A DNA stretch of 64,000 nt from a virus. Below the pieces are notes generated by a model, which worked only from the letters and a program-made list of their open reading frames with translations, made no database searches and was not told where the DNA came from. Below are positions 16,590 through 47,536 of this stretch, in pieces (the stretch's first letter is position 1; every line of letters starts with the position of its first letter). A program made the position numbers and the translations under genes. The DNA lies in IMG/VR virus record IMGVR_UViG_3300020207_000012, positions 28,011-92,010 of that record; one strand, given 5' to 3'.

Positions 16590-17661
16590 AATTATTAGGA
16601 CTATTTGGATTATAAAGAGTGCCTTCCATATCGTGTAGAATTTGATATGTTGGAGAAGGTGAAATAACACCTAAGCGTGATGGATGAGGGTCGTCTGCTC
16701 TTTGCTGTGAAACGTTCATACTAAGAACACCTTGGATTTGACCTGTTATATAGTTACTGTATCCACCGTAGCCACCATAACCACTATAACCACTGTATCC
16801 TGTATAACCACAGTATCCACCATAAGTATTTAAATGTTCATTATTTAAGAAATATACTGCTACATCAATTTGATGATCTGAATGTAGTTTCGCCCATACT
16901 TCATAAGCGTTATTAGGCAGACCTATATAATTGGCTCTTTTTGTGTAAACATTTTGATAGCTACCAATAAGACCGGTATATCCTAAACCAGGAGTACCTG
17001 CGCCCTTACTTGATACTGTTTCGCTGTGTTGAATTTTCACTACCCCAATATCAAACAATAGTCTATGCCATCCTTCAGATGTATCAAAGTGATAACCTTC
17101 AGGTATATCAGGAAGGTTAGGATCTAATTCTGATTCAATTCTAATTTCACCGCCGGCATTAAAGAAGTGTCTCATTGAGTCTGCGTCAACAAAATTAACT
17201 CTAAATTCGTACCATTGATTTTCTTGTCCCCACTGTTCATCTGTGGGGTCTGGTTCGCATACGACAAATTCATTCATAGAACTTACTAGGTTACTTTGAA
17301 TGCTCATTTTAGATAAAGTATAATTTAGTTTGTTTGCTCTTAGCTCTTCTATGTCATCCATAATCTTTGCCATATGAGCAACAACTTCAGCTTTAGTTCT
17401 AAAGTCACCGTTAAGTAATGTCGTAGGAGTAGTTAACAAAGTTCCCTGATGAACTGCTGCAAACTTCATAGCATCAAATAATCTAAGCCAGTGTCTTCTA
17501 CTTATTCGTGTCCCACTTGTTATCAAATTCACAAACAATTGATCTTGTCCGTATCCAGCATCTCCTGATCCTAGCGCAACGACTTCGTTAATATCGTTAG
17601 CTAGTTGGTTATAATCTTTTGCTTTAAAGTAACTTACAATCGGATAACTTTGCGGCGACAT
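16588..17661 (-). CDS. Virion structural protein with Gly-Tyr repeat
   Basis: 357 aa. The first ~200 residues are a globular domain. Near residue 285 lies a run built of GY(T/S/G) triplets (GYTGYSGYSGYGGYGG), a collagen-like glycine-tyrosine repeat. A second short GxxGLGYTGLIG lies further upstream. Such repeats occur in tail-fibre or neck-whisker proteins of marine myoviruses. It sits between two other baseplate-distal proteins. The exact position in the virion is unknown. It is translated from ATG 17661, 11 nt after the previous gene. Confidence 0.6.
   Translation of the reverse strand: MSPQSYPIVSYFKAKDYNQLANDINEVVALGSGDAGYGQDQLFVNLITSGTRISRRHWLRLFDAMKFAAVHQGTLLTTPTTLLNGDFRTKAEVVAHMAKIMDDIEELRANKLNYTLSKMSIQSNLVSSMNEFVVCEPDPTDEQWGQENQWYEFRVNFVDADSMRHFFNAGGEIRIESELDPNLPDIPEGYHFDTSEGWHRLLFDIGVVKIQHSETVSSKGAGTPGLGYTGLIGSYQNVYTKRANYIGLPNNAYEVWAKLHSDHQIDVAVYFLNNEHLNTYGGYCGYTGYSGYSGYGGYGGYSNYITGQIQGVLSMNVSQQRADDPHPSRLGVISPSPTYQILHDMEGTLYNPNSPNN
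16751..16815 (-). repeat. Gly-Tyr triplet repeat in structural gene
   Basis: Imperfect 9-bp units (on the plus strand forms of ATAACCACT/GTAGCCACC) encode GY-G/S/T triplets within the 357-aa protein. Unit number is likely to vary between relatives by slippage. Confidence 0.8.
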
Positions 17662-18402: not shown

Positions 18403-21400
18403 CTATAATAACCTTTTGTCTGGTTCTTCTAACAAGAATACCATAGTCTCAGGAGATGAGAAAATATATATTTTATCTCCTTGTAGCCCGTTTACAGCTA
18501 TTCCATTAAACAACGCACGGTCTTTTATTCTAAGTTCAGCGCCTTCTTTTCTGTCATAATGTAAGAATTCAATGTTTCCATTTTGATCTTCTATACCTAT
18601 GATTTGTACACTTTCTGCTTTAGCATTTCTAAATTTAGTTTCATCGGTGACGGTCAAAATGTTATTATTCCACGAATCGATACTATCAGTTTCGACTACA
18701 TGCATCATATGACCTCTACCAAGATTATCATACACTATAAATGATTTTTTATCAAGTGTTAATCTTGTTTCATCTGTAAAATTATCAAGTCTGATGATAG
18801 CAGAGTCTAGTATACGTGACTCAACTAGTCCAGTATCATATCCACCTTCATCTGCTGTTGTTTGATAAAAACGTCTTAGTAGACCACCTTGTTCATATGT
18901 ACCATCTTCCATTTCAGGGAAATCTTCTGGCTCAACTGATGGGTGCATTTCTATTCCACCATCATATGTATTAATTTTGTATCTACTATTTCTACCAAAG
19001 TCAATATGTAAGTTCATGTAGTTTAATGCGTCAACATCTGCTTCCACAATCTCTTCTGGTTCATAAATTCTCTTTATGTCTCGTAACTTAACATGATATG
19101 GTTTAGCTTCCATTAAGTATTCAATAGTATCATTGTATGAATCACGTTGATATATTGCGTGTTGTCTTAGTGGTTTATTATAAAGATTAACATCAATGTA
19201 ACTTGTTTTAAACAACCAGTCTGGATATGTTTTTTCAGTATACATATAATCTAACATACCAAAGAATAATTCTTTGATGTATGACAAATCAGAATACTCA
19301 TATATCATATTAATAAATTCATGTAGTTGAACTTTAATAATGTTTTCATAATATTTTGGAACACCTGTTTCTAGTGTTTGACCAGGTAGTTCTATGTCGT
19401 TAAATGTTAGACTTAGTGCGCCTTTTACTTTGTTCACTAATCTAATTTCTTTTGGTTCACCAAAACCAAAGTAATACTCTTCGTAATTTTCATTTTTAAT
19501 TTTGAAACTACGTGTACCATTTTCAAACATTGTTATCATATCAATATTTCTAGTTCTGCTTAAGAATTCATAACTAGTAATATCCTTATAGTCTTCGTTT
19601 ATATACCAATTAACTGCTTCAAAAATATAGTGATCCAATTCCACATAATCTTTATAGAATGGATATCTAGCTTCAATAAGAGTTTTATTAAAGTGGTCGT
19701 TGATTATAGATTTAAAGTTGTCTCTCGCCGAGTCTAAATCTGAGAACCAATTATTAGTGATCGCTCCTACTTGATAAACTCTAACAACATCACCAACTAT
19801 AACATCATAGTTGTTATTAATTCTAAGTGAAGTTCCGTCAATTGAGAAATCTTCTAAATCTATAAAATGATTATTAACTGATACTGCGATATCATCTTCA
19901 GTTAAATCTGTTAAGAAATCAACTTCTAATAGAATGCCTTCATCATCAATATCATATATACCAGCAGTTAGGTGAACACTATTTTCAATCTTACTGTCAG
20001 CAATACTATTTTGTAAATCACTTAAGTATTCAGGCATGATTGCTACTTTTGATTCACGTGACAACAGTTCCCAATCTGAGTGACGATACTGTTTATTTTC
20101 GTCGGAACTATATTGTGTTGTAACCCACCACCATCTGTTTTTAGCTTGTGTTTTATTAGAAACAACAATAGTATTTTCATCGATAGGTATGAACTTATCT
20201 TTGATATCGCCAGTTTCAATAATCATTTTTATTTCATCTGTGCTATACTCTTTGTTGTATCTTGGTAATGTACCTAAATCAGTCCAATAGTAATACTTCG
20301 TAACTTCTTTCTGTCTAGCTTCGTCCCAATATATTTCTTGGTTAAACCATGTAATACCATCTGGTAGAACTTCATTTTCAACCCATTGTTTTATGACAAT
20401 TTGAGAACCGTCGACTACTTTGCCCCAATGTCTTTTTACATAATCAATTTCGATGTTTCCGTTAGCATCCCCATAATCATTATATCTATAGAAACGAGCA
20501 AGATTAGTATCCCACCAAATCTCACCAAGATGCTCATCTAACCATAAGTCTTGTGAATAGTACTCATCATACTTTGCAGGGTCTTGCCAATCCACAAAGT
20601 CGATATCTTTCATAATTGTTCCTGGTAATTTTAGATTTAGTGGATCAAATAATTGGTGTTGAATATAATCTGTCCCATCACGTATAATCATTCGTTTAAC
20701 TAAATCTACATTTACTTCACGTGCTTTTCTATTTTTAACAGTTAGGTTTCCGACATTACTTCTGTCAAGTACTGCCCAACCTCTGTCATTATGTTCATCT
20801 GCCCAAATTGTTGTTTGATCGTTTAGTCCTAGATTTACATAGAAGCTATCAAAGTTATCACCGTTGTATCCAGGTGTGTATCTTACCGACTTCCAACGCA
20901 TAACTTTAAAGTTTGCGTTACTTTGAATACTTGTGTAGTCTCTATACAACCCTAATTTTTCAAGTAGCAGTTCACTTGTTCCGCTGAAACTTATAGCAAG
21001 TGTAGAACTAGATATAATAAATCTACCATCTGAAGTTATAGATGCTGTATATATAGAAGACTGATCATTTATTTGGTCTCTAAATTCAATCAGCGATGTA
21101 CTTAATGATTGTGTATTAACATATTCACCTGCTGCTATACCAAAGTCATCTAACGGATTACCTGTCAGGTTACTTATAGATACACTACTATCATTACCGC
21201 TTATAAGTAGTCTTCTGTCAACTTCTGTAGCTGTCATATCTGTATTAGATAGCACTGAGTTTATATCAGAAATGATATTATCTAATGACCTTGAAACTTC
21301 TGTAGTGTTTAAGAAACCTAATCTTCCCATAGCACCAGTAGTTACTTCTGTTACTGTGAGTGTAGGATTCAATGATCCTATTTTTAATCTACCAGACACA

Positions 21401-47196: not shown

Positions 47197-47225
47197 TTGA
47201 CAAGCGAATCATAATATGCTATAGT
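47197..47225 (+). promoter_or_regulatory. Early promoter of the small RNA
   Basis: TTGACA 47197-47202, 17-nt spacer, TATAGT 47220-47225, with CGAATC at 47205-47210 (closer to the -35 than in the sister promoters). Start expected near 47232. Confidence 0.7.
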
Positions 47226-47231
47226 AATATT

Positions 47232-47344
47232 ATATAAGGAAGTTAGTGTCTCCTCTCACCTCTCTCATCACTACTAGCTTCTTTATAGTTTCAACACAGA
47301 GCATGAAACTAACCCGGTGCAGTCATGCATCGGGTTTTTCTTTT
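47232..47344 (+). ncRNA. Probable trans-acting small RNA with anti-SD loop
   Basis: About 110 nt between a sigma70 promoter and an intrinsic terminator. Three stem-loops: 8-11 bp (47239-47246 with 47274-47281, extendable), enclosing a 27-nt pyrimidine loop containing CTCCTCTCACCTCTCTC; 8 bp (47286-47293 with 47304-47311); and the terminator. The loop is complementary to GAGAGAGG/AGGAGAG-type ribosome sites used by this phage (e.g. before 950, 1396, 16556 and 50051). An ORF frame runs through it from GTG 47246 but has no RBS and would destroy the logic of the terminator. Function is inferred. Confidence 0.65.
47312..47344 (+). terminator. Intrinsic terminator of the small RNA
   Basis: Stem 47313-47321 with 47326-47334 (9 bp, one G-U), GTCA loop, then TTTTTCTTTT. 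Confidence 0.85.
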
Positions 47345-47358
47345 AAATGGAGTTTAAT

Positions 47359-47536
47359 AATGAGCATTACACGGGCACAATCACCAAAGTTAGAAAAAGA
47401 ACGTGAGGAAGCAGATAAAGCTATAAAAGAATTTCTAAAAAAAGGTGGTAAAATTAAAAAGATACCAGACGGTGTACACACCGAAGCGAAAGATATGAAG
47501 TACAAATATCGTAGAGGTGCTAAAAAGAAAGAATAA
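47359..47536 (+). CDS. Small basic protein, unknown function
   Basis: 58 aa from ATG 47359, chosen because GGAG (47349-47352) is its RBS and the longer frame would run back through the sRNA terminator. Very lysine-rich, helical N-terminal half (KLEKEREEADKAIKEFLKKGGK), basic tail ending RRGAKKKE: possibly nucleic-acid-binding. No promoter of its own is evident after the terminator, so it depends on read-through. Its stop lies inside the next gene's late box. Confidence 0.6.

Follow-up and report, generated by a model that had tools for sequence, protein, structure and literature searches.

A role is known for few of the regulatory RNAs that phages encode, and temperate phages are the source of many of these. 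DicF, IsrK, VpdS and PreS (reviewed in PMC12197685) and two noncoding RNAs of PhiKZ (PMC8545117) are small structured RNAs encoded by phages, and some phage-encoded regulatory sRNAs base-pair with host mRNAs (PMC12197685). Among bacterial RNAs, the Burkholderia double-hairpin RNAs of Rfam family RF02278 (ncS03, ncS05, ncS27 and ncS62; PMC4603805, PMC5688073) display CU-rich unpaired regions complementary to ribosome-binding sites (PMC5688073). Overexpression of ncS27 attenuates growth and its silencing has the opposite effect (PMC5688073), and RF02278 RNAs are toxic to E. coli when introduced on a cloning vector (PMC4603805). NmsR (RF02877), encoded by chromosomal tandem genes in Neisseria, also combines CU-rich unpaired stretches complementary to ribosome-binding sites (PMC5688073) with a 5' hairpin and a terminator.

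We analyzed a stretch of 64,000 nucleotides, hereafter the window, which belongs to a 92-kb virus record of IMG/VR and contains a small RNA (sRNA) whose nearest Rfam relative is RF02278. Common to both are UGUCUCCUC followed by a CU-rich block, unpaired and complementary to ribosome-binding sites, as well as an intrinsic terminator and the form of a short independent intergenic RNA. Unlike RF02278, the sRNA is phage-borne, carries both CU blocks in one large loop closed by an added, long 5' stem, is devoid of the CCACC...GGUGGAUUC hairpin and has an additional stem-loop with an ASAGAGCAU motif. With NmsR it shares the architecture named above but not the sequence. The two PhiKZ candidates are fragments of mRNA UTRs (PMC8545117), whereas the sRNA described here combines a promoter of its own with a conserved anti-Shine-Dalgarno (anti-SD) loop, a design for which we found no described phage sRNA in the literature searched.

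Promoter, transcript and conserved loop

Sequence comparison confirms positions 47232..47341 (+) as a discrete, independent phage small RNA gene, and we regard its existence together with selection on its anti-SD loop as very likely. The predicted transcript of about 108-110 nt is supported by its fold, by covarying pairs and by a covariance model that finds it in every relative of the group, with the start placed 7 nt past the -10 element and the end at the U run of the terminator. The TTGACA/TATAGT promoter of the preliminary description holds up: TTGACA-17-TATAGT with TG before the -10 (47197-47225) is of the sigma70 type, scores 11/12 matches and is the top-scoring promoter site in its 5-kb stretch. 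The -35 element TTGACA (47197..47202, +) is invariant in all relatives, which also retain TG and TATA..T of the extended -10 element TGCTATAGT (47217..47225, +). Because promoter-like sites in the whole stretch show no excess over shuffles (24 vs 21.6), the weight of the sRNA promoter comes from its conservation. Five related phage records were also scanned without bias for strong promoters with a terminator hairpin no more than 220 nt downstream, and the sRNA was the only such unit common to all five. As in the anti-SD class of sRNAs, an own promoter and an intrinsic terminator are both present by sequence and conservation.

Strong extended -10 promoters were also seen in record G001, at L140 (-) near 17425 and at L134 (-) near 18828, each with a perfect hairpin and U run within a few bases downstream. 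The hairpin stem at L140 holds GAGAGGAGA, which is complementary to the sRNA loop. These hairpins could be 5' stabilisers, tiny RNAs or a sponge.

Folding of the 113-nt RNA gives exactly three stem-loops with a minimum free energy of -37.2 kcal/mol (z = -6.73; 0/200 shuffles as good), in keeping with the earlier claim of a transcript of about 110 nt with three stem-loops, the last an intrinsic terminator. Stem 1 pairs a 5' strand near the inferred RNA 5' end (47234..47248, +) with a 3' strand at 47272..47286 (+), both identified by fold and covariation, and encloses a predicted single-stranded loop of 23 nt (47249..47271, +). Stem-loop 2 (47287..47310, +) has 7 bp in the window, is weak in L013 and absent in the L011/L012 group. 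The terminator (47311..47344, +) consists of an 11-bp stem and a U run and shows most of the compensatory changes (8/10 modelled pairs). Covariation of the first stem had been proposed as a check, and the stems do covary clearly: 13 of the 24 base pairs have compensatory changes on both sides, 8 in the terminator, 3 in stem 2 and 2 in stem 1, and standard pairs make up 98.1% of the pair cells. Shuffling reached none of the measures (0/500) and slid controls fell to 40-51%. The alignment was fitted to the model, which favors the structure; for stem 1 and the terminator, folds of the single sequences give the same result.

Loop 1 is, by sequence comparison, the most constrained part of the sRNA. 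Its anti-SD core UGUCUCCUCUC(A)ACCUCUC (47247..47264, +) is invariant in relatives, with 18/18 aligned letters identical between groups and no substitutions, only indels: one A is missing in the window, where the first two bases of the core close the stem, and an extra UC is present in L011/L012. CTCCTCTCACCTCTCTC lies inside the loop at 47250-47266. Third codon positions of gp46 are only 52-57% identical and the remainder of the sRNA about 60-80%, so the lack of loop substitutions indicates that selection acts on the loop sequence itself. The mean unpaired probability of the loop is 0.82-0.91 in the 7 distinct RNAs, so in every member, giving the conserved, accessible and SD-complementary seed that characterizes the anti-SD class. 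The earlier reading of a pyrimidine tract was right in composition, which persists in relatives along with the sequence, but not in length, given as 27 nt. The second conserved and mostly unpaired motif, ACAGAGCAU at 47296..47304 (+) and AGAGAGCAU in L013, has the consensus A(C/G)AGAGCAU, kept in relatives.

Distribution and genomic setting

Using blastn and pattern searches, we found the sRNA unit in 19 IMG/VR viral contigs, which sort by sequence into five groups, all from related, uncultured T4-like phages: the window with L002 and L003; L006, L007 and L008; L011, L012 and L104; L013-L016; and L097, L098, L101-L103, L105 and L106. The covariance model built from five sequences recovers the L013 and L011/L012 groups with E-values of 3e-9 to 1.5e-7. 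Model R1 found no copies in about 70 gp46 relatives of 60% identity or less, PA5oct and Phosso, and scanning such more distant phages for the pyrimidine tract was equally empty. Against 398 bacterial genomes the same model gave only three weak matches, which rest on terminator-like hairpins. Hits of the loop and motif pattern in bacterial genomes (six contigs) showed nothing resembling the sRNA unit and look coincidental.

The gene neighborhood is of T4-like phage type. A late sigma factor gene (42254), the SbcD/gp47 gene (43140) and the SbcC/gp46 gene (44759) lie upstream; the order then runs from gp46 through two small genes and the sRNA to a SutA-like gene and, on the opposite strand, a RusA/PDDEXK-like nuclease. 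In L013, gp46 is directly upstream of the sRNA and a 381-aa gene separates the sRNA from the SutA-like gene. These differing neighbors argue that the sRNA is an independent unit. By gp46, the nearest isolates are PA5oct-like Pseudomonas phages, with 52% amino-acid identity and similar gene order; together with the SutA-like gene they offer only hints, from sequence, as to the host.

Several features of this neighborhood were recorded in passing. The 58-aa SutA-like gene (window 47360-47533, +), found in all relatives, resembles the RNA-polymerase-binding domain of SutA (PF20661), scoring 28.9 bits against a cut-off of 29.3, and its L013 homologue scores 29.5. The 106- and 84-aa genes of the window are replaced in relatives by an Hc1 histone-like gene (PF07432, E 3e-10), which adjoins the sRNA upstream (L006:5650-5823; homologues in L011, L012, L091 and L097). 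In L095 and L104 alone, an additional gene of 189 aa (MKTFKDYLAEKSGSFTAYHGSGANFDKF...), about 240-815 nt past the sRNA, separates the SutA-like gene from the conserved gene that follows. On the minus strand at window 48420-48880, a non-coding stretch of ~430 nt is about 75-84% identical in all relatives and contains long near-invariant blocks. Its predicted fold has z = -3.3 on the minus strand and -1.2 on the plus strand, double changes occur in 20/114 predicted pairs and it has no Rfam match; the stretch resembles a large structured RNA of phages that has yet to be described.

Scores against known RNA families

At curated thresholds Rfam returned no match for the sRNA, and a tRNA/tmRNA search returned none. 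Below threshold, RF02278 is one of the best-ranking families for the window RNA and the sole family reported for L120 and L114, with 23.1, 24.9 and 23.0 bits, respectively, against a gathering cut-off of 50. Its alignment to the phage RNAs always runs via UGUCUCC(U) and the terminator. True RF02278 members have UGUCUCCUCCACC(C)UCCUCC...GGUGGAUUC and a terminator, and sub-threshold bacterial relatives retain UCUCCUC...CUCCU; 398 genomes, taken from the phylum to which a genome titled Alphaproteobacteria belongs, gave 39 positives, 23 of them over the cut-off. Every phage sRNA has the unpaired UGUCUCCUC with a second CU-rich block downstream, as UGUCUCCUCUC(A)ACCUCUC, and none has the family's short CU-loop hairpin with a CCACC/GGUGG stem directly before the terminator. 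Dinucleotide shuffles matched the likeness of the loop to RF02278 in 99/2000 cases for the window, 21/2000 for L006, 168/2000 for L013 and 397/2000 for L011; as judged from sequence, a likeness beyond composition is only suggestive. With scores of 23-25 bits, far under 50, the phage RNA may act like RF02278 without membership; on this analogy it plausibly works like an RF02278 RNA, and we do not file it there.

NmsR scored 20.1 bits against a gathering cut-off of 52. The Rfam 'trpB motif' (27.3 bits, cut-off 59) was set aside as its score stems from a generic hairpin and terminator. A CsrA/RsmA-sequestering RNA, which needs several GGA in hairpin loops, is unlikely too: within the exposed part of the 5' half of the window copy, the single GGA is in stem 1, and it is absent in L006, L091 and L013 (AAAGAAG).

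Candidate targets and mode of action

Against Shine-Dalgarno sequences of the AGAGGAGA and GAGAGGU types, the loop reaches a pairing energy of about -13 kcal/mol, matched by 0-16 of 300 permuted loops; canonical UAAGGAGGUGA pairs well with the window loop variant only. The preliminary description had the loop complementary to ribosome sites before several phage genes and suggested that it could bind leaders in trans and lower translation of host or early phage mRNAs, or else titrate ribosomes; of these, repression of host mRNAs and ribosome titration may apply. The GAGAGG/AGGAGAG complement does precede a few phage genes, for example at window 50051, 1396, 14526 and 950, but for phage leaders overall the real loop has no pairing advantage over permuted ones, so this complementarity is mainly base composition. 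Sites matching the loop antisense at 13/16 or more were absent from the phage records searched, except for the sRNA's own antisense strand. A specific action on phage leaders is thus not upheld, and host mRNAs become the likeliest main targets. The complement of the second motif (TCATGCTCTGT) occurs exactly at one further site, which lies in the 342-kb record.

With the unit, its structure, its independence from neighboring genes and sequence-level selection on the loop established, we give about an even chance to a trans-acting anti-SD RNA directed mainly at host mRNAs. The host-type sigma70 promoter would drive this stand-alone sRNA probably from early in infection, a timing inferred from the promoter type. 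Stem 1 would seal the 5' end and the terminator hairpin the 3' end, displaying the CU-rich loop between them. Loop blocks UCUCCUCU and ACCUCUC would pair with SDs of the AGAGGAGA and GAGAGGU types, and the sRNA would act in trans on several mRNAs, chiefly host ones, by covering their ribosome-binding sites and blocking translation initiation. Hfq is a probable partner in this scheme, and the U-rich tail is compatible with dependence on Hfq or ProQ. RF02278 double-hairpin ('toxic') sRNAs, which have the UGUCUCCUC block too, have been proposed to work in the same mode.

Selection on the loop could also be explained by a sequence-specific protein: the sRNA would then serve as cofactor or decoy of an RNA-binding protein from host or phage. 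Such a role would suit the conserved CU tract, which is single-stranded and sits in a stable stem-loop, the other conserved unpaired motif (ASAGAGCAU) and the absence of a long complementary target from all phage records searched. Rho, ribosomal protein S1 and cold-shock proteins, the candidate binders, like single-stranded pyrimidines. They tolerate C/U drift, however, which sits poorly with a loop free of substitutions, and the restriction of GGA to stem 1 of the window makes CsrA unlikely; we consider a protein site unlikely, if worth keeping in mind. An attenuator is improbable: the sRNA does lie directly upstream of the SutA-like gene on the same strand in the window, L006, L011, L012 and L097, so that terminator read-through of a cis-acting 5' leader could be imagined, yet in the L013 group (342-kb record) a promoter-like sequence and the 381-aa gene follow the sRNA and the SutA-like gene begins 1.3 kb further on. 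Moreover, predicted folds show no alternative antiterminator pairing and the terminator is strong in all members. As for translation from GTG 47246, the window has an open frame with an RBS-like AAGGAAG that would fuse a short protein in frame to the SutA-like protein. Single-nucleotide indels and stops break this frame in relatives, which excludes it, and paired compensatory changes suit RNA rather than protein; the chance of a coding role is negligible, and the noncoding reading given earlier stands.

Regulation mainly of the phage's own genes, namely at the ribosome-binding site of gp46 (an SbcC-like nuclease subunit) and perhaps of structural gene 50051, also seems unlikely to us, somewhat more so than a protein site. 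The gp46 ribosome-binding site carries GAGAGAGGT, the exact complement of loop ACCUCUCUC, at L154:3200, L157:19029 and L161:6220 (+) and at L146:10425 (-); elsewhere in those records GAGAGAGGT occurs only on the sRNA antisense strand, and it is absent at window ~44750. The exact 9-mer GAGAGAGGU, complementary to ACCUCUCUC, is found at the gp46 leader in four of the five records (G001, G003, G006 and G007) and is otherwise confined there to the sRNA antisense strand. Ranked by pairing, the gp46 leader comes 1/60 and 1/31 in two records and the 50051 leader 1/86, 3/60, 1/50 and 4/31 in four. Against this, the gp46 leader of the window lacks the site although its loop retains ACCUCUCUC, the 50051 homologue of G001 ranks 329/425, and the G001 loop reads ACCUCUCAUC, so the 9-bp match is incomplete there. 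The leaders moreover share a common origin, which keeps the records from counting as independent, and leader pairing overall equals that of permuted loops. Although related by descent, the gp46 and 50051 leaders may be real side targets of an sRNA acting mainly on host mRNAs.

Its promoter, ends, structure and invariant seed define the sRNA tightly enough to make it directly testable. More tentatively, and with some doubt, the trans-acting anti-SD RNA could be a phage version of the RF02278-type anti-ribosome-site module that turns down translation of many host mRNAs early, an RNA-based shut-off. If a generic anti-SD loop does repress host translation, the phages would possess an RNA route to host takeover that parallels bacterial growth control by sRNA.
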